Positions 41,628 to 64,000 of a stretch of DNA of 64,000 nt are shown piece after piece (position 1 is the first letter of the stretch; every line of letters starts with the position of its first letter). The DNA is taken from assembly GCF_000420265.1 (NCBI RefSeq), contig NZ_ATUP01000001.1:2480001-2544000 (forward strand), written 5' to 3'. Below the pieces are notes generated by a model that had not been told where the DNA came from, searched no databases, and saw only the letters and a program-made list of their open reading frames with translations. The DNA comes from Oceanicaulis alexandrii DSM 11625 (GTDB lineage: Bacteria > Pseudomonadota > Alphaproteobacteria > Caulobacterales > Maricaulaceae). A program made the translations under genes and the position numbers.

Positions 41628-41742
41628 TTACCCACAACTAGCGTAATAAGGGAATTCACGCGCCTATAATAGGAATGTTATCCTCACCCTTCAGCTCGAT
41701 CCTATACTTCACAGAAGGATCGACAAGGGAGGGGATAACCCG
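41628..41742 (+). promoter_or_regulatory. Promoter region of the GafY/GafZ-like pair
   Basis: A TATAAT -10 element lies at 41665-41670 inside the palindrome CCTATAATAGG; no good -35 is seen. A DnaA-box-like 9-mer TTACCCACA (41628-41636, one change from TTATCCACA) lies upstream of the -35 position, where an activator could bind. GTTATCC (41676-41682) and GGATAAC (41733-41739) form a wide inverted repeat. A strong GGGAGGGGA ribosome site precedes the ATG at 41743. Confidence 0.4.
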
Positions 41743-42093
41743 ATGCGTACCAACACGCTTGTTCTGGACCAGGCCCGCGCCCGGCTGGCGCAACAGGCCG
41801 CCGCCTACGCCTTTGGCGTGCCGGTGGAGGAGATCAGCAGTCCGACACGGGGGCGAGCGCGCGCTGCGCTGGCGCGACAAGCCGCCATCTATCTGACCCA
41901 TGTGGCGTTCGAGCTGAGCTTGAACCGTGTGGCCGACGCGTTTGGCCGCGACCGCTCCACCGCCGCTCACGCCTGTCACCGGATTGAGGACGCCCGCGAC
42001 GACCCCGCCTTTGACGCGGCGATGGAGGACCTCGAAGCCTGTCTGCGCTCGGCTCCGGGACCGGATCTCATTCCCTTCGGAATGACCCAATGA
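41743..42093 (+). CDS. DnaA-domain-IV-like DNA-binding protein, GafY-like GTA activator
   Basis: 116 residues. The core ARQAAIYLTHVAFELSLNRVADAFGRDRSTAAHACHRIEDARDDPAFDAAME is a Bac_DnaA_C helix-turn-helix (compare GRDHTTVLHACRKI in DnaA), but there is no AAA+ ATPase, so it is not a replication initiator. In Caulobacter, GafY is such a small DNA-binding activator of the GTA cluster and is encoded next to GafZ. Here the stop overlaps a DUF6456 gene by 4 bp, giving the same pair. A GTA cluster lies 16 kb downstream. Confidence 0.75.
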   Translation: MRTNTLVLDQARARLAQQAAAYAFGVPVEEISSPTRGRARAALARQAAIYLTHVAFELSLNRVADAFGRDRSTAAHACHRIEDARDDPAFDAAMEDLEACLRSAPGPDLIPFGMTQ

Positions 42094-42860
42094 ATGCCGC
42101 TGTACCAGGCTGGCTGCGGCGTCTGGCCCGGCCGGGCGCCCGGCTGGCGCAGCGCAGCGGCGGGCGCTCTGGCTATGGTGTCTACGCCAGCGCAGACCGT
42201 CGCCGCCGCCCGCTGGCGAGCGTCAGCGACGCCGCTCTGGCGCACGCGTTGGAGCAGGGCTGGCTGGCACAGGCGCAAGCGAATGAATTCGTACTGACGC
42301 AAGTGGGGCGGCGCTGTCTTGATGAGGGCGATGCCGCGGGTGTCCGACCCGCTCTGACCCTCGCCCGGAAGACGCTGCACGACCCTGAGGGCGGGCTCAG
42401 GCTGCAGACGGTCAACCCGACAACGCTCGACGGCCCGCTGGCGCGCTATGCGCGGCCTCAGAACGGCCGGCCCGCCTTGCTGGAGGCCGTGCATCTCAGT
42501 GCGGCCGACAACCTGATGCGCGATTATGAACGCTCCACCCTTTCCAGCCGCGTCACGCAAAGCTGGAGCGGCGTGCCCGGCGGGGGCGTGCGTTCGGCGC
42601 CAAGGGACCGTAGCGAGGCGCCGATACAGCGTCTGAACGCGCAGGAGCGCGTGATGGACGCGCTGGCGGCGGTCGGGCCGGGGCTCGATCACTGGCTGGT
42701 GGAAATCCTGATGCGCCAAAGCGCCATGACCGAGGCCGAACGCCGCCTCAACTGGCCGTCACGATCCGGCGCCCAAGCCCTGAAACTGGCGCTGGATCGT
42801 CTGGCAGTGCACTACCGGATGAAACCGGCGGGCTTGGGCGTCGATCCGTACGGGCTCTAA
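42090..42860 (+). CDS. DUF6456 protein, GafZ-like GTA antiterminator candidate
   Basis: 256 residues. An N-terminal winged-helix-like part (SVSDAALAHALEQGWLAQAQANEFVLTQVGRRCLDEGD) is followed by a middle segment with ALLEAVHLSAADNLMRDYERSTLSSRVTQSW, and a DUF6456 C-terminus (NAQERVMDALAAVGPGLDHWLVEILMRQSAMTEAERRLNWPSRSGAQALKLALDRLAVHY). The pairing with the DnaA-like protein matches GafY/GafZ of Caulobacter, fused as GafA in Rhodobacter. Caulobacter GafZ is reported to work as a transcription antiterminator. Family call fairly sure; the GTA role is by context. Confidence 0.72.
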   Translation: MNAAVPGWLRRLARPGARLAQRSGGRSGYGVYASADRRRRPLASVSDAALAHALEQGWLAQAQANEFVLTQVGRRCLDEGDAAGVRPALTLARKTLHDPEGGLRLQTVNPTTLDGPLARYARPQNGRPALLEAVHLSAADNLMRDYERSTLSSRVTQSWSGVPGGGVRSAPRDRSEAPIQRLNAQERVMDALAAVGPGLDHWLVEILMRQSAMTEAERRLNWPSRSGAQALKLALDRLAVHYRMKPAGLGVDPYGL

Positions 42861-43276
42861 AGCCGCGCCTGCGCCTCGGCCTGGATGCGTTTGATCATCG
42901 AGGCGAGACCATTGGAGCGTTGCGGCGAGAGGTGCTCGGCGAGGCCGATGCGGCCCAGAACCTCTTTGGGATCAATGGACAGCGCCTCGTCGGGCTTGCG
43001 ACCGTCATAGAGCCGGCTTAACAGCGCCACGAGCCCCTTGACGATATGGGCGTCGGAATCCCCGCGCAGCTCCAGCGCATGATCCGGTCCGTCATCAATC
43101 ACCATCCAGACCTGGCTGACGCAGCCTTTGACGCGGGTGTCGTCGGTGCGCTCGGCGTCGGGCAGGCCGGGCAGGGCCTGGCCCATCTCGATCAGATAGC
43201 GATAGCGTTCTTCCCAGTCGCCCAGAAAGTCGAACTCGTCCACGAGGGCGTCGATGTCAGCTTGAAGATCGGTCAT
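42857..43276 (-). CDS. sufE: SufE family Fe-S cluster assembly protein
   Basis: 139 residues from the ATG at 43276 (MTDLQAD). SufE hallmarks: DFLGDWEERYRYLIEMGQALPGLPDAERTDDTRVKGCVSQVWM, with the sulfur-accepting Cys in KGCVSQVW. It takes persulfide from SufS and passes it to the Suf scaffold. It stands alone here, without other suf genes, converging on the DUF6456 gene with a 4-bp overlap. Confidence 0.93.
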   Translation of the reverse strand: MTDLQADIDALVDEFDFLGDWEERYRYLIEMGQALPGLPDAERTDDTRVKGCVSQVWMVIDDGPDHALELRGDSDAHIVKGLVALLSRLYDGRKPDEALSIDPKEVLGRIGLAEHLSPQRSNGLASMIKRIQAEAQARL

Positions 43277-43326
43277 GAACGCTGAGGTAAAGCGCACGCC
43301 GAGACAGGGCAAGACCAGCGCCGCGT

Positions 43327-55248: not shown

Positions 55249-56127
55249 ATGAGCGATGTGACCCCTGAGGCGACCAAGAACCCTGTGGCGCGGCTGCTCG
55301 ACAGCGCGGCGTTTCGCAACACCATCACGACGCTGATCCTTGTGAACGCGGCGATCCTGGGGCTTTTGACCTATCCGCTGCCTGAGCTGATGGTGCAGGT
55401 TCTGACCTATGCGGATCACGCGATCATCGCCGCCTTCGTGGTCGAGATCGTGCTGAAGGTCTTCGTCCACAGGCTGAATTTCTTCAAGTCAGGCTGGAAC
55501 TGGTTTGATTTTCTGGTGGTGGCGATCTCGCTGGTGCCGGCGGCGGGCGCGTTCACCGTGTTGCGGGCGTTGCGGGTCTTGCGGCTGTTCCGCCTGTTCT
55601 CGGTCATTCCCGAAATGCGGTCGGTGGTCGAGGCGCTGGGCAAGGCCATTCCGGGCATGGGCGCGATCATGCTGGTGCTGGGGGTGATTTTCTACGTCGC
55701 CTCGGTGATGGGCGCGAAGCTGTTTTCAGGCACCCACCCTCAGTTTTTCGGCGATCTGGGCGGGTCCGCCTACACCCTGTTCCAGGTGATGACGCTGGAG
55801 AGCTGGTCCATGGGAATCGCCCGGCCGGTGATCGCCGAGCATCCGTTCGCCTGGATCTTCTTCGTCGGCTTTGTGATCGTCACCAGCTTCGCCGTGCTGA
55901 ACCTGTTCATCGCGGTGATCGTGGATTCCATGCAGTCCAAGCATTTTGACGCCGAGACCGAGCGTCAGGCTGAAGCCCATGACGAGCGTGAAGTGCTGAT
56001 CCATGAAGTGCGCGCCCTGCGTTCCGAACTCGCGGATCTGCGCGAGCTGCTGGGCAAAGAGGGCGGGGCGGATCAGCCGTCTATGCCGTCCTTGAGCGAT
56101 TCAAACCGCGCTGACAAAGCCGAGTAA
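55249..56127 (+). CDS. Bacterial voltage-gated sodium channel (BacNav type)
   Basis: 292 residues from the ATG at 55249. A voltage-sensor domain (S1-S4) has the S4 arginines in VLRALRVLRLFRLFSVIPEMR (residues 104-124). The pore has the filter TLESWSM (182-188), the classic BacNav sodium filter, with S6 IFFVGFVIVTSFAVLNLFIAVIVDSMQ. The C-terminal neck is a coiled coil (VLIHEVRALRSELADLRELLG). It forms a homotetramer in the inner membrane. The last 55 bp overlap the convergent penicillin-binding protein gene. Confidence 0.93.
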   Translation: MSDVTPEATKNPVARLLDSAAFRNTITTLILVNAAILGLLTYPLPELMVQVLTYADHAIIAAFVVEIVLKVFVHRLNFFKSGWNWFDFLVVAISLVPAAGAFTVLRALRVLRLFRLFSVIPEMRSVVEALGKAIPGMGAIMLVLGVIFYVASVMGAKLFSGTHPQFFGDLGGSAYTLFQVMTLESWSMGIARPVIAEHPFAWIFFVGFVIVTSFAVLNLFIAVIVDSMQSKHFDAETERQAEAHDEREVLIHEVRALRSELADLRELLGKEGGADQPSMPSLSDSNRADKAE

Positions 56128-58043
56128 TACGCCGCCAGCCGCTCTTCACGGGCGCCGCGCCGTTGCGGCGCCGGGGCCGAGAGCGGGGCGGCGGGCAGGC
56201 CTTCATGGGCTTCGCTCATGAAGCGGCGCCAGATTTCGGCAGGCAATTGACCGCCTGTGACGCCGTCCGTGGGCGTGTCGTCATCATTGCCGACCCAGAC
56301 GCCGGCGACCAGCTGGCCGGTATACCCGACAAACCAGGCGTCGCGGCTCATCTGGCTGGTGCCGGTCTTGCCCGCGACGCGGCGGCCATTGATCTGGGCG
56401 CGCTGGCCCGTGCCTTCGATCACCACGCCTTGCAGCAGCGTCGACATCCATTGCGCCTGCTCGGGCTCGATCACCTGGCGGCCTTCGGTCGCTTCAGGCG
56501 CCTGATACAGAAGATCGCCGCGCGAATTGCGCACCTCCAGCACCAGAACCGGTTCAGGGCGGCGACCGTCATTGGCGAACACGGCATAGACCCGCGTCAT
56601 GTCGATCAGGCTGACCCCGGAGGCGCCCAGGGACAGAGACGGCACGGCGTTGAGGGCTGTGGTGATCCCCAGGCGCTGTCCCATTTCCGCAACGGCGTCC
56701 GCGCCCACCGCGGCGCCCGCCTGTGCGGCCACGGTGTTGATCGAGCGTTTGAGGGCGTCGGCGATGGTGATGCGGCCGCGATAATCGCCGCCATAGTTTT
56801 CCGGGCTCCAGCCCTCGATCTCGATGGGTTCGTCGTTGAAGGCGGTGGCGGGCTCCATGCCGGCTTCAAACGCGGCGGCGAAGACCACGGGCTTGAACGC
56901 CGAGCCGGGTTGGCGGCGGGCCTGAACCGCGCGGTTGAACTGGCTGGCGGTGTAATCGCGCCCACCCACGATCGCTCGCACCCGGCCTTGAAGATCCATC
57001 GCCACCAAAGCCGCTTCGTCGGCGTTGCGCGCTTCAGCCTGCAGGTCCATGACCGCAGCGACGGCGCGCTCGGCGGCGCGCTGGGCGGTGACGTTCAGGC
57101 TGGTGCGGATCACCAGATCGGGCGTATCCGCGGCGTCGCCCAGATGCTCTCGGGCTTCCGCCACCGCCTGATCAAACACATAGCCAAAGGCGCCCGGCTC
57201 AAAGCTTTCATCGCCGGCCGCCAGCTCGGCCGGGTTTTCAAGGGCCGTCTCATAGGTCGCCTGATCAATGAATCCGGCGTCCAGCATGCTGTAGAGCACC
57301 GCCTCGGCGCGGGCGCGGGCGGCGGGCAGGTTGGAAGTCGGCGCCAGGCGCGACGGCGCCTTGGGCAGCGCCGCCAGAAGCGCCGCTTCTGAGACGGTCA
57401 GGGCGCTGGCGGATTTGTTGAAATAGCGTTGGGCCGCAGCTTCCACCCCATAGGCCTGATCGCCCAGATAGACCCGGTTGAGATAAAGCTCGAGGATTTC
57501 CTGCTTGGTCAGATGACGCTCCAGCTCGGTGGCGATGCGGATCTCCTGCAGCTTGCGTCTGGCGGTGCGTTCGGGGCTGAGGATCAAATTCTTCACCAGC
57601 TGCATGGTCAGGGTCGAGCCGCCCTGGACCAGCGAGCCTGCGCGCAGATTGGCCCACATGGCGCGCGCAAAGCCGCGCTCGTCAAAGCCGTCATGATCGT
57701 AAAAGCGCCGGTCCTCGATAGCGAGGAAGGCCTGGGGTACATGATCGGGCAGGTCTTCCAGCTGCACAGGTCGCGCATAGAGCGGTCCGCGCTGGCCCAG
57801 AATGGCGCCGTTTTCCGCCAGCACCGTCACCGCCGCCTCGCGCCTTACGCTCCACAAATCCTGTGCGTTTGTTGGAACGGGCGGCAAGTCGTGGTAGGCC
57901 CAACGCCAGATTACAACCCCGCAGGCCAGCCCCGCCAGCAGCACCAGTTGCACGGTGACGAGCGCGATGAGGCGCCAGCGGGCTTTGAGCCTAGTTATCA
58001 GGGAGGGCGATTGATCGGCGCGGAATGTGATGGCGGACCTCAA
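56073..58043 (-). CDS. Class A penicillin-binding protein (PBP1A family)
   Basis: 656 residues. An N-terminal membrane anchor (residues 25-48) precedes the GT51 glycosyltransferase, with catalytic Glu110 in AIEDRRFYDHDGFDERGFARAMWANLRAG and QGGSTLTMQLVKNL. The transpeptidase has Ser381 in RQPGSAFKPVVF, the SIN motif (LKRSINTVAAQAG) and KTGTSQMSRDAWFVGYT. It polymerises and crosslinks peptidoglycan. It ends without the OB-type insert of E. coli PBP1a, giving a compact form. It overlaps the sodium channel gene by 55 bp, a large convergent overlap. Confidence 0.93.
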   Translation of the reverse strand: MRSAITFRADQSPSLITRLKARWRLIALVTVQLVLLAGLACGVVIWRWAYHDLPPVPTNAQDLWSVRREAAVTVLAENGAILGQRGPLYARPVQLEDLPDHVPQAFLAIEDRRFYDHDGFDERGFARAMWANLRAGSLVQGGSTLTMQLVKNLILSPERTARRKLQEIRIATELERHLTKQEILELYLNRVYLGDQAYGVEAAAQRYFNKSASALTVSEAALLAALPKAPSRLAPTSNLPAARARAEAVLYSMLDAGFIDQATYETALENPAELAAGDESFEPGAFGYVFDQAVAEAREHLGDAADTPDLVIRTSLNVTAQRAAERAVAAVMDLQAEARNADEAALVAMDLQGRVRAIVGGRDYTASQFNRAVQARRQPGSAFKPVVFAAAFEAGMEPATAFNDEPIEIEGWSPENYGGDYRGRITIADALKRSINTVAAQAGAAVGADAVAEMGQRLGITTALNAVPSLSLGASGVSLIDMTRVYAVFANDGRRPEPVLVLEVRNSRGDLLYQAPEATEGRQVIEPEQAQWMSTLLQGVVIEGTGQRAQINGRRVAGKTGTSQMSRDAWFVGYTGQLVAGVWVGNDDDTPTDGVTGGQLPAEIWRRFMSEAHEGLPAAPLSAPAPQRRGAREERLAAYYSALSARFESLKDGIDG

Positions 58044-58113: not shown

Positions 58114-58575
58114 ATGAGCGATAATCGTCCCTTTTACGAACGCAAGTCGCTTTCTGAAATGAGCGACAGCGAATGGGAGTCGCTGTGCGATGGCTGCGGC
58201 AAATGCTGCGTCGTCATTCTAGGCGATGAAGATGACCCTGACACGTTCTGGCGCACCAATGTGGGCTGCAAGCTGCTGGACCTGAAAACGGTGCGCTGCA
58301 CCGATTACGCCAACCGCCAGACCCATGTGCCCGGCTGCGTGCGACTGAGCGCAAAGAATATCGACCAGCTCAAATGGATGCCCGACACGTGCGCCTATCG
58401 CTTGCTGAATGAAGGCCAGAGCCTGCCCGACTGGCATCCGCTGAAAACCGGTGACCGCGAAAGCGTGGTGCAGGCCGGGCATTCGGTCAAAGGCAAGCTT
58501 GTCAGCGAAAATGACGTCGACGAGGGCGATTTCGAGAGCCATATCGTCAGCCGTCAGGACGCAAAGCGGGGATAA
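58114..58575 (+). CDS. YcgN family cysteine-cluster protein (UPF0260)
   Basis: 153 residues. FYERKSLSEMSDSEWESLCDGCGKCCVVILGDEDDPDTFWRTNVGCKLLDLKTVRCTDYANRQTHVPGCVRLSAKNIDQLKWMPDTCAYRLLNEGQSLPDWHPL is the complete UPF0260/YcgN pattern with its conserved cysteines, likely binding Fe-S or zinc. Function unknown. It is the last housekeeping gene before the GTA cluster. Confidence 0.92.
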   Translation: MSDNRPFYERKSLSEMSDSEWESLCDGCGKCCVVILGDEDDPDTFWRTNVGCKLLDLKTVRCTDYANRQTHVPGCVRLSAKNIDQLKWMPDTCAYRLLNEGQSLPDWHPLKTGDRESVVQAGHSVKGKLVSENDVDEGDFESHIVSRQDAKRG

Positions 58576-58685
58576 CGCCTCGCCTGTCCTTCATTCCTGA
58601 ACCGTCCTTCCCTGACGCCGCAAGGCGTTGGACGAAACCGTGCGCGTTCAATCCGACCGAGGCGGTTATCGGCTAGTCTTCAGGC

Positions 58686-59207
58686 ATGGTCGAAATGAAC
58701 ACGAAGACGCCCCTCCTGGCGCCGGACCGGACGGGTGGGGGGCGGCGCTTTGACTGGATCGCCATTCATGAAGGCTGGCGGGCCGGGCAGGGCGCCGAAC
58801 ACCTGGCGGCGGCTTTCGGGCTGAAGCCGAAAACAATCACCGACAGATGCGGCTGGATTGACCAGCATTTCCCGCCCCCCGCGCCCGCAAGGATGATCGC
58901 GGAGCTGAACCGGCGCCTGGAAGCGGCGTTGGCGGCGCTCGACGATGGGGATGCGGGCAAGGCCGAACGGCAGGCGAAGACCATCGCCGCGCTGATCAAG
59001 GCGGGCCGCGATCTCAAACATTGGAGTGAAACCATGACCCAGACCGAGACGGGTGGCGCTCCCGCCGCGCATGAGGAGCAAGCGGGTGACGAACGAGACT
59101 ATTACGCCGAACTCGATCGCCGGCTCGATCGCCTCGCAGAGCATCTCAGAGCGAAGGGCGTGGGTGCGCAATCAGACCCCTCAGGAGGTGAAACGCCTCG
59201 CGACTAG
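58686..59207 (+). CDS. GTA small terminase-like protein (orfg1/TerS position)
   Basis: 173 residues. An N-terminal helix-turn-helix (DWIAIHEGWRAGQGAEHLAAAFGLKPKTITDRCGWIDQHF) is followed by a helical middle (MIAELNRRLEAALAALDDGDAGKAERQAKTIAALIKAGRDLKHW). The HTH plus its position right before the large terminase fits the TerS role. It is longer than the 106-residue Rhodobacter protein. The last 44 bp overlap the proposed terL start. First gene of the GTA cluster. Confidence 0.75.
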   Translation: MVEMNTKTPLLAPDRTGGGRRFDWIAIHEGWRAGQGAEHLAAAFGLKPKTITDRCGWIDQHFPPPAPARMIAELNRRLEAALAALDDGDAGKAERQAKTIAALIKAGRDLKHWSETMTQTETGGAPAAHEEQAGDERDYYAELDRRLDRLAEHLRAKGVGAQSDPSGGETPRD

Positions 59208-60396
59208 CTGGCGCTTCTGGGCGCGCACTGATCAGCTGCCGCCTGACGGCGACTGGCGCACCTGGTTGTTTCTCGGTGGGCGCGGGGCTGGCAAGACCCG
59301 CGCCGGAGCCGAATGGGTGAGGGCGCAGGTGAAGGCGGGCAGACGGCGCATCGCGCTGGTGGCGCCGACCTTTTCCGATGTGCGCGAGGTGATGGTGTCC
59401 GGCCCGTCAGGCTTTCTCAATATCGGCGAGGATGAGGACCGTCCCCGCTATGAAGCCAGCCGTCACCGTCTGGTCTGGCCGGACGGGGCGATGGCCTATG
59501 GCTTTTCATCTGAAGACCCGGACGGCTTGCGCGGGCCGCAATTTGATTGCGCCTGGGCGGATGAATTCGCGGCCTGGACCCGGCCTCAGGAGACGCTCGA
59601 CATGCTGGGGCTGGGGCTTCGGCTGGGCGAGCAGCCGCAATTGATGATCACCACCACGCCCCGGCCGTTGCCGGCGCTGAAGGCGCTTCTGAAACAGGCG
59701 GGCGTGGTGGTCAGCCATGCTGGGACCGATGCGAACGCGCCCAATCTGGCGCCGGGTTTCGTCGCGGCGATGACCGAGCGCTATGGCGCCAGTCGTTTGG
59801 CGCGACAGGAGCTTGAGGGCGTGCTGATCGACGATCCCGAAGGGGCGTTGTGGACGCGCGGTCTGATTGATCAGGCGCTGGCGCTTTCAGAGTTCGAGCC
59901 CGAACGCGTGGTGGTGGCGGTGGACCCGCCCGCCAGCGCGACCGGGGATGAATGCGGCATCATCGCCGCCGGCGCTTCCGGTCAGGGTCGCGAGGCCCGG
60001 CTGGTGATCCTGAAAGATGCCAGTCTTCAGGCGCGGCCCGAAGACTGGGCGGCGCGGGTGGCGGAAACCTTTGACGCATTGGACGCAGACGCTGTGATCG
60101 CCGAGGCCAATCAGGGCGGGGACATGGTCCGCGCCGTGTTGCAGGCCGCAGCGCCGGATCTGCCGGTGCGGCTGGTTCACGCCAGCCGCGGCAAGCGGGC
60201 GCGGGCTGAACCTGTCGCCGCGCTCTACGCCCGCGGCCGGGTTCGACATGCGGTGCGCATGCCGGCGCTGGAAGACCAGATGTGCAGTTTTGGCGCCCCC
60301 GACCAGAGCGGCAGCCCGGACCGGGTGGACGCGCTGGTCTGGGCGGTCGCCGCCCTGACGCCTTCGGCCGCCAGCCCCCGGCTGCGACGGCTCTAA
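59164..60396 (+). CDS. GTA large terminase (TerL, orfg2)
   Basis: 410 residues from a GTG at 59164 (VRNQTPQEVKRLA); a GTG at 59188 or an in-frame ATG at 59053 are alternatives. Walker A LFLGGRGAGKTRAGAEWVRAQ, Walker B with catalytic Glu FDCAWADEFAAW, coupling motif TTTPRPLPAL and C-terminal nuclease-like region (VVVAVDPPASATGDECGIIAAGA, AEANQGGDMVRAVL). It packages DNA by a headful mechanism in GTAs. It overlaps terS. Confidence 0.92.
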   Translation: MRNQTPQEVKRLATSWRFWARTDQLPPDGDWRTWLFLGGRGAGKTRAGAEWVRAQVKAGRRRIALVAPTFSDVREVMVSGPSGFLNIGEDEDRPRYEASRHRLVWPDGAMAYGFSSEDPDGLRGPQFDCAWADEFAAWTRPQETLDMLGLGLRLGEQPQLMITTTPRPLPALKALLKQAGVVVSHAGTDANAPNLAPGFVAAMTERYGASRLARQELEGVLIDDPEGALWTRGLIDQALALSEFEPERVVVAVDPPASATGDECGIIAAGASGQGREARLVILKDASLQARPEDWAARVAETFDALDADAVIAEANQGGDMVRAVLQAAAPDLPVRLVHASRGKRARAEPVAALYARGRVRHAVRMPALEDQMCSFGAPDQSGSPDRVDALVWAVAALTPSAASPRLRRL

Positions 60397-60413
60397 CTCA
60401 ACAGGAGAACGCC

Positions 60414-61571
60414 ATGCTCAAGCATTGGCTGGGTCTCGGTCGCAAGGCGGCCGGGCGAACCCTTGCGCTCGGATTCGGGACGGGGGCGAGCTGGAGCCCG
60501 CGCGGCTACGCCGCCTTCGCCACCGAAGGCTATGCCCGAAACGCCGTCGCGCATCGTTGCGTGCGGCTGATCGCGGAAGCGGTCGCCGCGACGCCTTTGA
60601 AGACCCTCAGCGAGGATCGCGCCAGCCAGCAGGCGATGGCGTTGATCCAAGCGCCCAATCCCGACCAGTCCGGCGCCGAGCTGATGGATAGCGTGCAAAG
60701 CCATCTGCAGGTGGCGGGCGACGCCTATCTGCACCTGTCCGGCTTTGAGGCGGGCGCGCCGGGGCTCTATGCGCTGCGGCCTGACCGGGTGCGTGTGATG
60801 ACCGGCCCCAAGGGCTGGGCGGAGGGCTGGGAATATCGCACAGCGTCCGGCGCGCAGGTGTTTCAGCGCGATCGCGCGTCGGGCCGGTCGCCTGTCCTGC
60901 ATCTGAAACTCTTTAACCCGACCGACGATCAATATGGCCTGTCGCCCATGGAGGCGGCGGCGCGGGCGGTGGATGTGCACGCCTCGGGCGGCGCCTGGGC
61001 GAAGGCGCTGCTGGATAACGCGGCGCGCCCGTCCGGCGCTCTGGTGATGAAGACCGGATCAGAGGGGCAGGGACGTTTGACGCCGGATCAGTTTGACCGG
61101 CTGAAAGCTGAACTGGAAAGCCTCTACACCGGCCCCGATAACGCCGGGCGGCCCTTGCTGCTGGAAGGCGGGCTCGACTGGAAGCCCATGGGCCATTCCC
61201 CCGCCGAAATGGATTTCATTCAGGCCCGGCGAGAGGCGGCGCGCGAGATCGCGCTGGCGTTTGGCGTGCCGCCCATGCTGCTGGGGCTGCCGGGCGACAA
61301 CACCTATTCCAATTATCGCGAGGCCAATCAGGCGTTTTATCGCCAGACGGTGTTGCCGCTGGCGAAGAAAACCGCCGCCGCGCTCAACCGGTTTCTGGCG
61401 CCCTGGTTCGGGACCGATCCGAAGCTGTGCGTGGATGAAGACGGCCTGCCCGCCTTTACAGAAGAGCGCGCCGCGCGCTGGGCGCAGATCTCCGGCGCGG
61501 ACTTCCTGTCGCCGGATGAAAAGCGCGCCCTTCTGGGCCTCGCCCCGCAAGGACAAGGAGAGCCGTCATGA
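60414..61571 (+). CDS. GTA portal protein (orfg3)
   Basis: 385 residues from the ATG at 60414, with AGGAG upstream. HK97-type portal: GYARNAVAHRCVRLIAEAVAATPLKTL, QAPNPDQSGAELMDSVQSHLQVAGDAYLHLSGF, and GVPPMLLGLPGDNTYSNYREANQAFYRQTVLPL. It forms the dodecameric DNA gate of the capsid. The stop overlaps the next small gene by 4 bp. Confidence 0.93.
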   Translation: MLKHWLGLGRKAAGRTLALGFGTGASWSPRGYAAFATEGYARNAVAHRCVRLIAEAVAATPLKTLSEDRASQQAMALIQAPNPDQSGAELMDSVQSHLQVAGDAYLHLSGFEAGAPGLYALRPDRVRVMTGPKGWAEGWEYRTASGAQVFQRDRASGRSPVLHLKLFNPTDDQYGLSPMEAAARAVDVHASGGAWAKALLDNAARPSGALVMKTGSEGQGRLTPDQFDRLKAELESLYTGPDNAGRPLLLEGGLDWKPMGHSPAEMDFIQARREAAREIALAFGVPPMLLGLPGDNTYSNYREANQAFYRQTVLPLAKKTAAALNRFLAPWFGTDPKLCVDEDGLPAFTEERAARWAQISGADFLSPDEKRALLGLAPQGQGEPS

Positions 61572-61822
61572 GCCTTGGAGACCAGGTCGCCCAAGGCTGG
61601 CGGCTGGATCGCTCGATCACCCTCGGCGTCATTCTGGCGCTGACGCTGCAGACCGCGGGCGCCTTGATGTGGACCGGGGCCGCCAATGAGCGCCTCGATC
61701 AGCTGGAAACCCGCGCCGACGCCACCGCGCCGGTGGCTGAACGTTTGGCGCGGCTGGAAGCGCACGCCGCGTATTCGCGCGCTGCGCTGGAACGCATCGA
61801 GCGTCGCCTCGAACAGGACTGA
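61568..61822 (+). CDS. Small membrane protein in GTA cluster (orfg3.5 position)
   Basis: 84 residues. One hydrophobic helix (SITLGVILALTLQTAGALMW) is followed by a C-terminal coiled coil (NERLDQLETRADATAPVAERLARLEAHAAYSRAALERIERRLEQ). It occupies the place of Rhodobacter orfg3.5. Topology (one anchor plus helical periplasmic or cytoplasmic rod) is reminiscent of small phage accessory or spanin/holin-like proteins, but no function is known. Confidence 0.72.
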   Translation: MSLGDQVAQGWRLDRSITLGVILALTLQTAGALMWTGAANERLDQLETRADATAPVAERLARLEAHAAYSRAALERIERRLEQD

Positions 61823-61857: not shown

Positions 61858-62325
61858 ATGCAGGCGCTGAACGGCTCTGGCGAGACGCTGGAGGTGGCTG
61901 GCTATGCCAGCCTGTTTGATATCGAGGATCAGGGGGGCGATCTCGTCCGCGCGGGGGCCTTTGCAGAGGGGCTGAAAGCGCGAGGCCCCACAGGGGTGCG
62001 CATGCTGTTCCAGCATGATGCAGCGGAACCTGTGGGCGTCTGGGACGAGATCGCCGAGGACGGCCGCGGGCTCTATGTCCGCGGCCGGATTCTCTCGACC
62101 GCGCCGCGCGGACGCGCCGCCCTGGGGCTGGTGCGCGAAGGGGCGGTGGATGGCCTCTCCATCGGGTTTCGCACGCAACGCTCCGCGCCCCGACCGGGCG
62201 GCGGACGCGATCTGCTTCAGCTCGATCTGTGGGAGGTGTCCATCGTTACCTTTCCCATGCTGGCCCAGGCGCGGCTTCGCGTCCTTGGGGCTTCTGAGGC
62301 GCGGCTCGCCGCGTCGGCGGCCTGA
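61858..62325 (+). CDS. GTA prohead protease (orfg4)
   Basis: 155 residues, HK97-type S78 protease: GYASLFDIEDQGGDLVRAGAFAEGL, the catalytic His in VRMLFQHDAAEPVGVWDEIAED, the Ser in VREGAVDGLSIGFRT and the Glu in DLWEVSIVTFPMLAQARL. It cleaves the capsid precursor during maturation. It precedes the capsid gene by 37 bp. Confidence 0.92.
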   Translation: MQALNGSGETLEVAGYASLFDIEDQGGDLVRAGAFAEGLKARGPTGVRMLFQHDAAEPVGVWDEIAEDGRGLYVRGRILSTAPRGRAALGLVREGAVDGLSIGFRTQRSAPRPGGGRDLLQLDLWEVSIVTFPMLAQARLRVLGASEARLAASAA

Positions 62326-62362: not shown

Positions 62363-63568
62363 ATGAGCCGGGAAACCAAGATGGCGGTTCCTTCCGCTGA
62401 CACGCGCGTGGCCATGGCGGACATGCTGGCCGCGTTTGAACACTTCAAACAGGCCAATGACGACCGCCTGGAGGCGCTGGAATCCAAGACCGGCGCCGAT
62501 CCGCTCATTGCCGACAAGGTGAACCGCATAGACGCGGCGCTGAACGAGGCCCAATCCCGCCTCGACCGTCTCAGCCGGGAAGCGGCGCGGCCCGACCTGT
62601 CCGGCGCCGATGTGAAATCGGCGGGCTGGTCCGGCTTTCTGCGCACAGGCGAAACGCCAGCGCTCGATCAAAAAGCGCTGTCGGGCCAGACCGGCGCAAC
62701 GGGCGGCCATGTGGCGCCGGCGGAGCTTGAAACGCGTATTGAACGCCTGATCCGCGAGGTCAGCCCGATCCGGTCCATCGCCACGGTCAAACAGACGCGG
62801 TCTCACACCTTCAAGAAACCGGTCAGCGCGGGCGGCGCAGCAGGCGCCTGGGCGGCGGAGACGGCGAGCCGGCCTGAAACCGACGCGTCCTCGCTGGAGC
62901 TGCTCGAATTTCCGACCGCCGAGCTTTACGCCATGCCCGCCGCGACGCCTGCGATCCTTGATGATGCGCTGGTCGATCTCGAGCAATGGCTGGCTGAAGA
63001 AGTGCGCGACGTGTTCGCCGAGGCCGAGGGCAAGGCCTTCGTCTCCGGCGACGGGGTGAACAAGCCGCGCGGGTTCTTGAGCTACACCATGGCCGAAGTC
63101 GGCACGGAAAGCTGGGGCGAGATGGGGTTTGTCTCGACCGGGGTGTCGGGCGGCTTCTCCGCGTCTGACCCTGCAGATGCGCTGATTGATCTGATCTATG
63201 CGCCCAAGACCGCCTATCGCGCCAATGGCCGCTTTGTGATGAACCGCTCCACGGTGTCCTCCGTGCGCAAGTTCAAGGATGCAGACGGCCAGTATATCTG
63301 GCAGCCCGCCCAGGGCGCGGGCCAACCGGCGAGCCTGATGGGCTATCCCGTCACCGAGGCCGAGGACATGCCCGATATCGGCGCGAACAGCTATTCCATC
63401 GCCTTTGGTGATTTCGAGCGTGGCTATCTGGTGGTCGATCGCCAGGGCGTTCAGGTGCTGCGCGATCCGTATTCGGCGAAACCCTATGTCCTGTTTTACA
63501 CCACCCGCCGCGTCGGCGGCGGCGTGCAGGATTTCGACGCGATCAAGTGTCTGAAATTCGCCGCCTGA
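62363..63568 (+). CDS. GTA major capsid protein (orfg5, HK97 fold)
   Basis: 401 residues. An N-terminal scaffold-like coiled segment (AMADMLAAFEHFKQANDDRLEALESKTG...NEAQSRLDRLSREAA) is removed by the protease in such systems. The HK97 core includes LIREVSPIRSIATVKQTRSHTFKKPVS, TAELYAMPAATPAILDDALVDLEQWLAEEVRDVFAEAEGKAFVSGDGVNKPRGFL and the P-domain end DFERGYLVVDRQGVQVLRDPYS. A strong terminator follows 23 bp after the stop. Confidence 0.94.
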   Translation: MSRETKMAVPSADTRVAMADMLAAFEHFKQANDDRLEALESKTGADPLIADKVNRIDAALNEAQSRLDRLSREAARPDLSGADVKSAGWSGFLRTGETPALDQKALSGQTGATGGHVAPAELETRIERLIREVSPIRSIATVKQTRSHTFKKPVSAGGAAGAWAAETASRPETDASSLELLEFPTAELYAMPAATPAILDDALVDLEQWLAEEVRDVFAEAEGKAFVSGDGVNKPRGFLSYTMAEVGTESWGEMGFVSTGVSGGFSASDPADALIDLIYAPKTAYRANGRFVMNRSTVSSVRKFKDADGQYIWQPAQGAGQPASLMGYPVTEAEDMPDIGANSYSIAFGDFERGYLVVDRQGVQVLRDPYSAKPYVLFYTTRRVGGGVQDFDAIKCLKFAA

Positions 63569-63645: not shown

Positions 63646-64000
63646 ATGTCTCTCACTCTTTTAAGCCCGCCCGGGGCGGAACCTGTCAGTCTCGACGCAG
63701 CGAAAACCTGGCTGCGCGTCAGCCATGAAGACGACGATGCGCTGATCACCGACGCGATCATCGCCGCCCGTGAGCATGTGGAAGCGCGCACCGGGCTGGC
63801 GCTGATCACCCAGAGCTGGCGCGAGCGGCTGGATGATTGGCCGCGCGACCGGCTGAGCGCGTCGGGGCTGGCGGTCAGCCTCGCCAAGGCGCCGCTTCTG
63901 AGCGTCGAGGCGGTGCGCGGCCGCGAGCGGGACGGGACGCTCTCGGTCTGGGATCCGGCGGAATACCGGGTGGAGACCGGCGAGCCGGGACGGCTGGTGG
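63646..64000 (+). CDS. GTA head-tail connector (orfg6), partial at window end
   Basis: 118 residues visible, then the window ends. It starts MSLTLLSPPGAEPVSLDAAKTWLRVSHEDDDALITDAIIAAREHVEARTGLALITQSWRERLDDWP, the phiE125 gp8 / gp6-like head-tail connector pattern. An AAGGAGG ribosome site lies 8 nt before the ATG. Tail genes are expected further on. Confidence 0.88.
   Translation, partial: MSLTLLSPPGAEPVSLDAAKTWLRVSHEDDDALITDAIIAAREHVEARTGLALITQSWRERLDDWPRDRLSASGLAVSLAKAPLLSVEAVRGRERDGTLSVWDPAEYRVETGEPGRLV

Follow-up and report, generated by a model that had tools for sequence, protein, structure and literature searches.

A GafY/GafZ-type gene pair in a shared neighbourhood with the GTA cluster of Oceanicaulis alexandrii, with candidate control sites

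Oceanicaulis alexandrii carries two overlapping genes that a first-pass annotation read as counterparts of the Caulobacter GTA activators GafY and GafZ, located upstream of a probable target cluster. Whether the pair belongs to this family, and whether its position near the cluster carries meaning, are the questions raised by the locus. The window analysed here is a stretch of 64,000 nucleotides (G000:C1:2480001-2544000) of the 3.02-Mb genome. The gafY-like gene (41743-42093, + strand) encodes 116 amino acids corresponding to DnaA domain IV, a DNA-binding HTH, without the AAA+ part. It directly precedes the gafZ-like gene (42090-42860, + strand, 256 amino acids), which encodes a DUF6456 protein and whose start overlaps the gafY stop by 4 nt (ATGA). 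Both reading frames were recovered as annotated, and both proteins score above the Pfam cut-offs: PF08299 (Bac_DnaA_C) matches the GafY-like protein with E 4.1e-14 and 52.8 bits (cut-off 31.5), and PF20057 (DUF6456) the GafZ-like protein with E 1.8e-32 and 112.7 bits (cut-off 26.3). Among solved sequences, the GafY-like protein has five matches, all to DnaA, with 3pvp at the top (E 5.5e-8). GafZ is the single DUF6456 match in the O. alexandrii genome, and among 14 control genomes the domain was matched in Caulobacter vibrioides only. The comparison with Caulobacter was made with sequences of Caulobacter sp. Root655 instead of C. crescentus, and the identities of 51% for GafY and 34% over 244 columns for GafZ bear out the proposed arrangement. 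By GafZ, the closest relatives among the genomes compared are Oceanicaulis sp. MMSF_3324 (G096) and Oceanicaulis sp. HTCC2633 (G085); the GafY-like protein is 97% identical to that of MMSF_3324. Judged by family scores and conservation in relatives, chance matches are excluded for both genes, and the assignment of the pair to the GafY/GafZ type is supported.

The layout matches that of C. crescentus GafY/GafZ (CCNA_01111/01112), with two neighbouring genes of the DnaA domain IV and GafZ types and a GTA cluster present in the genome. Rhodobacter capsulatus encodes one fused protein, GafA, with N- and C-terminal parts homologous to GafY and GafZ, respectively (PMC11150451), whereas Oceanicaulis has two genes. 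In Rhodobacterales, gafA is usually flanked by lipA and gua1, according to a passage of PMC6363796. A structure model of the Oceanicaulis GafZ (pLDDT 74.9, 14 sequences) had four sigma-28 chains as top Foldseek hits and many sigma region 4 structures among the later ones, with a best E of 0.25, which is not significant. These non-significant best hits would be in line with the sigma-like HTH of GafZ reported in section 12 of PMC11150451.

The GTA structural cluster, expected about 16 kb further on, indeed starts at 58686, which is 15.8 kb past the gafZ end, and its genes were recognised from TerL to the tail proteins, as in alphaproteobacterial type I GTAs. The first gene (g1 position, 58686-59207) encodes a protein with no match in Pfam or PHROGs. 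It is followed by the large terminase TerL (59053-60396; PF03237, PF17289) and the portal protein (60282-61571; phrog_12), both with uncertain starts, the head maturation protease (61858-62325; phrog_80), the major capsid protein (62363-63568; PF05065, phrog_10) and a head-tail adaptor (63646-64000) that runs past the window end, all on the + strand. A small gene between portal and protease (61568-61822) has no match in PHROGs. The cluster goes on with the tail terminator, major tail protein, tape measure, DUF2460, hub and NlpC/P60 proteins to a 1269-amino-acid tail protein (L031), and all recognised families are open frames. The family scan covered the whole cluster except for two small open reading frames before the tape measure (L031:9303-9787).

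Convergent with gafZ, here and in many relatives, lies sufE (42857-43312, - strand; PF02657). The neighbours on the cluster side are a penicillin-binding protein with transglycosylase and transpeptidase domains (56073-58043, - strand), which we take to be pbpC, and a CxxCxxCC-domain gene (58114-58575, + strand), presumably ycgN, immediately before the GTA promoter. The overall order is thus an antiporter operon, gafY, gafZ, sufE, further genes including RF3, then pbpC, ycgN, g1 and TerL. A comparison of 40 stretches from 32 genomes, in which some end pairs come from separate stretches, recovered this order, in full or in large part, in genera g1, g3, g6, g8, g13, g16, g17 and g19 of the own family and in family f11. 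Family f60 has both gafYZ-sufE and pbpC-ycgN-TerL, and parts of the order are found in f105, with inversions, and in f6, without a sufE match.

Activators and cluster also co-occur broadly. Among the 137 genomes of the family, 103 match both gafZ and the GTA TerL, five gafZ alone, nine TerL alone and 20 neither, for totals of 108 gafZ and 112 TerL matches, with some of the TerL matches being fragments. The genomes that match gafZ hence mostly match a GTA TerL as well (103 of 108), contrary to one of the outcomes that the first-pass annotation had named as refuting its reading. Of the 108 genomes with gafZ, 55 have TerL on the same contig, 48 on different contigs and five have no TerL match. 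The same-contig pairs lie within 45 kb in 44 cases and farther apart in 11, counts that do not stand for genome-wide rates, as contig breaks favour short distances. Within 45 kb, gafYZ is upstream and on the same strand in 43 of 44 pairs, either adjacent (17 genomes, <2.5 kb, genera g7 and g12) or at 12.3-39.4 kb (26 genomes). A sample of 387 genomes of the class contained 73 with a DUF6456 match and 111 with a TerL match. By hand, we found 28 genomes besides the own one with gafZ and TerL on a single contig. In 14, gafZ lies upstream, co-directed and at most 45 kb away (nine at 9.9-29.0 kb and five adjacent, two of which, G461 and G221, are based on weak DUF6456 matches); in four the genes are no more than 45 kb apart and point in opposite directions, and in 10 the distance is larger. 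As parts of the order from gafY-gafZ-sufE to pbpC-ycgN-TerL are also seen in other families, the proximity of pair and cluster looks inherited from an old gene order. The link is stronger than the first-pass annotation could know because the linkage is shared with relatives. The split gafA of Hyphomicrobiales, with a DnaA-like gene, a gafZ-type gene and sufE downstream, was already known (PMC9638019); in contrast to Oceanicaulis, the passages of that paper make no mention of a GTA cluster terminating the neighbourhood on the other side, and the literature passages considered here contain no statement on linkage of gafYZ to the GTA cluster. The C. crescentus pair differs from the Oceanicaulis pair, which sits 15.8 kb from the cluster in the shared gene order.

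The 17 genomes of genera g7 and g12 have gafYZ abutting the cluster. Five stretches from these genera show gafZ, a small gene at a distance of 0 to about 70 bp and TerL behind it, and in G049 the next start overlaps the stop codon of gafZ. In seven of eight adjacent-form genomes, those where it was found, sufE is located elsewhere. In g12 (five genomes), sufE, a histidine kinase and DUF1491 are still together away from gafYZ; in g7 (two genomes), sufE alone of the three was matched. The upstream antiporter operon is kept in three of five adjacent-form stretches, reduced to its last gene in one and missing in one. A TerL tree of 37 rows places g7 and g12 within an unresolved clade alongside the linked genera g3, g16 and g17. 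Given the tree position, the antiporter operon and the relocated sufE group, a later rearrangement fits better than ancestral adjacency, which is not favoured, and we read the g7/g12 arrangement as a later joining. Adjacency in family f110 may have an independent origin, with a promoter-like stretch separating gafZ from the g1-position gene. After this stretch, two f110 loci (L110, L111) and the single IMG/VR contig found (L171, which has gafZ, the g1-position gene and TerL at its start) carry ATGGTCGAAATTGCG or a one-base variant, followed by a GC-rich stretch with a T tract. The latter may be an attenuator of the kind an antiterminator would read through. In G244 (L109:9829-9880), a TAGGAATAAAATCCT box lies immediately 3' of gafZ at the putative GTA promoter.

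The DNA preceding gafY offers candidate sites for the control of the pair. An operator-like box, TAGGAATGTTATCCTC (41670-41685, + strand), is conserved and could be a repressor site of the RogA type. The predicted -10 of gafYZ, TATACT (41703-41708, + strand), follows 17 bp after ATCCTC (41680-41685), which is inside the box, and by eye the -35/-10 spacing is similar in many gafY upstream rows. The general form of the box, TAGGAANNTTATCCTC, therefore overlaps the -35 of the predicted gafY promoter. At least 12 of 14 positions are matched in 49 of 78 distinct gafY upstream regions versus 0.04% of mononucleotide shuffles, with the pattern derived from the loci scored, which are related and non-independent. 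The box is present upstream of gafY at all three Caulobacter loci compared (L157, L159, L160), a likeness with the Oceanicaulis locus. The O. alexandrii genome (3.0 Mb) contains one exact match to TAGGAANNTTATCCTC and one match with one mismatch. The RogA-bound region of C. crescentus carries GGAA-N4-TTCC repeats (PMC9632790, section 8), which the box appears to resemble: TAGGAATGTTATCCTC reads GGAA-N4-ATCC, with one mismatch and in one widely conserved copy. In addition, the right arm of the box, TTATCCTC, is similar to a half-site of the DnaA type. Of the 29 loci that lack the box, 12 have YTATCCYC in gene direction and one in reverse, against 0.4 expected, with several of the 12 being close relatives.

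An S24 protein is a candidate for the repressor at the box. The sole non-LexA S24 match in the genome (G000:C1:797927-798550) combines an HTH with an S24 domain and has a match in 197 of 299 genomes from the order (E 1e-20). At the positions aligned with the LexA catalytic residues it retains Ser and Lys, which does not fit the description of C. crescentus RogA, and it may therefore be a protein other than RogA. Genome G136 has neither the TAGGAA arm nor a match to the S24 candidate; G002 has no candidate and keeps the box, so that co-loss of the two is no rule. A different repressor, such as CdxB, described in passages of PMC13236601, may act through the box.

At the other end of the neighbourhood, the predicted GTA promoter (58649-58679, + strand) consists of CAATCC and TAGTCT with a conserved ATCCGACCG block. 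TAGTCT, the predicted -10, stops 6 nt short of the first cluster gene's ATG, whereas C. crescentus gtaT starts at +251 (PMC11150451, section 9). Upstream lies the inverted repeat GGGGATAA-N8-CTGTCC (58568-58589, + strand), a candidate GafY site. Across 33 Maricaulaceae loci, GGGGATAA and TTATCCCC spaced by N7 to 9 reach a mean best score of 12.12 out of 16, compared to a mean of 10.01 in 200 dinucleotide shuffles (sd 0.13, maximum 10.30); the motif was taken from the same 33 loci and is not independent of them, and one locus (L047) is cut by a contig end. The DnaA box is TTATCCACA, and the resemblance of the repeat arm to it would suit a DnaA-type protein such as GafY. GafY should bind both promoters, and the at most weak enrichment in gafY promoters (49 loci, 9.35 versus 9.08 in shuffles, sd 0.12, maximum 9.47) counts against this reading. 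The C. crescentus GafY element mapped by mutation contains ACTATG (PMC11150451, section 9) and may be a motif other than the inverted repeat. The pattern has four exact hits genome-wide, three of which fall into what appears to be a dispersed intergenic repeat, and six hits with at most one mismatch compared to five for a reversed control. A GafY regulon based on the repeat was consequently rejected. The three sites sharing GCGGATAAGTTYGCGGCTRTCC (G000:C1:496822, C1:1338475 and C2:224632) are intergenic, have similar surroundings, mimic the GTA promoter repeat and probably represent the dispersed repeat.

Additional promoter elements gave mixed results. An IHF-like match is poor in the own genome (6 of 9 positions) and averages 6.61 over 31 of the 33 loci, against 5.97 in shuffles (sd 0.12). 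Unlike in C. crescentus, no significant GafZ palindrome was found between the -35 and -10 of Maricaulaceae GTA promoters (4.71 versus 4.67 in shuffles; 28 of 33 cores typed), and this candidate was rejected. The palindrome is a feature of target promoters known from one species and not a feature of the protein. Exact copies of GCGCCCGGCTGGCGC, with no mismatch to the Caulobacter GafZ element, occur within gafY (41777-41791) and gafZ (42136-42150), both in ARLAQ codons, and GCGCCCGNCTGGCGC has five genome matches versus one for a reversed control. We regard the GCGCCCGGCTGGCGC copies as coincidental, as the best matches in the HTCC2633 and MMSF_3324 stretches searched have three and two mismatches, respectively. 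We make no claim for a conserved ATGGTCGAAA leader element, which coincides with the first-gene start codons in most loci.

We consider it highly likely that the pair is a gafYZ operon working as in C. crescentus, with repression at the box, activation by GafY, antitermination by GafZ and a retained gene order. A repressor on the TAGGAANNTTATCCTC box would keep the operon off. On release, the DnaA-type protein GafY would activate two promoters, that of gafYZ itself and that of the GTA cluster upstream of 58686. GafZ would join RNA polymerase at the GTA promoter and carry it through terminators along the cluster, and the pair would lie near the cluster through retention of the old order gafY-gafZ-sufE to pbpC-ycgN-GTA. 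The identity of the genes, the presence of the cluster genes, the linkage and the conservation of motifs are shown by the comparisons; the further steps, from repression and binding of GafY at the inverted repeat to antitermination and particle production, would follow the C. crescentus model laid out in passages of PMC11150451 and PMC9632790. Section 14 of PMC11150451 proposes for GafZ a mode of action like that of late-gene antiterminators such as lambda Q, to which, according to the same paper, GafZ has no sequence or structural similarity.

Could the pair instead be a relic kept by drift, with host regulators alone controlling the GTA cluster? The assembly of HTCC2633 (L095:1130-1600) has gafY broken by an internal deletion, where the first ~38 codons run into gafZ sequence, with loss of both the DnaA-type HTH and the start of gafZ. 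This may be a real loss or an assembly fault. As HTCC2633 is a close relative, the intactness of the GTA switch is not uniform in the genus. A gafZ match is also absent in nine of the 112 family genomes with a TerL match. Against drift, dN/dS of gafZ is well below 1, at 0.27 compared to MMSF_3324, where gafY reaches about 0.04, TerL 0.24 and RF3 0.06. Compared to HTCC2633, gafZ has 0.32 and TerL 0.15, with just 35 gafY codons being comparable; a 35-codon "portal" hit with dN above dS was left out because the stretch stops short of the portal gene, and no other capsid or portal hit was available in this stretch for dN/dS. The ratios indicate purifying selection on gafY, gafZ and TerL, the pair and its promoter box are conserved, and nearly all gafZ genomes match TerL, which together make a relic quite improbable. 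The first-pass suggestion that the GTA is intact and controlled in this lineage is one we infer from the cluster genes, purifying selection and the conserved operator-like box.

Closeness of pair and cluster could also be incidental, given that 12 of the 55 same-contig family genomes have other arrangements, six of them in the own genus, that 48 more cannot be judged with the genes on different contigs, and that half of the 28 class genomes lack the arrangement with gafZ co-directed and at most 45 kb upstream. Where the distance is no more than 45 kb, the pair is nevertheless upstream of the cluster and co-directed with it almost throughout the family and in 14 of 18 cases in the class. The two ends of the block, sufE on one side and pbpC-ycgN on the other, are found again in f11 and f60, and f11 shares more of the block than f60 does. 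Mere coincidence is thus very improbable. Least probable of all is a role of GafY as a DnaA-like replication modulator of the HdaB type, with the pair acting on chromosome replication and not on the GTA. The match to DnaA domain IV would suit such a role, and HdaB was the first name given to the C. crescentus homologue; the same source ascribes the replication effect to GTA induction (PMC9632790, in the passages concerned), and gafYZ is linked to and co-occurs with the GTA cluster. A phage origin of the pair is not supported. The lone phage record with a relative (MW462191.1, "Bacteriophage sp.", 103 kb, L172) contains cellular genes alongside gafY-like, gafZ-like and sufE-like ones, and the part examined looks like a bacterial chromosome fragment.

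More tentatively, and with odds we place somewhat below even, gafYZ and the GTA might form a linked regulatory island across several alphaproteobacterial families, in which GafY reads a site derived from the DnaA box and which collapsed into one operon in two Maricaulaceae genera. The sites would be the GGGGATAA-N8-YTATCCCC repeat at the GTA promoter and, at the gafY promoter, one YTATCCYC copy inside the repressor box. In the two genera, the gafY promoter alone would drive activators and particle genes as a self-reinforcing switch.

These comparisons lend good support to a gafYZ operon whose neighbourhood is shared with relatives, and they add new candidate control sites; the mechanism proposed for the operon is carried over from Caulobacter. 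The locus adds Maricaulales to the groups with a GafYZ-type switch and provides specific candidate DNA sites. In genera with the adjacent form, one promoter may govern both activators and structural genes, and HTCC2633 may represent a natural gafY loss. Together, the adjacent genera and HTCC2633 would allow a direct test of what keeps GTAs switchable.
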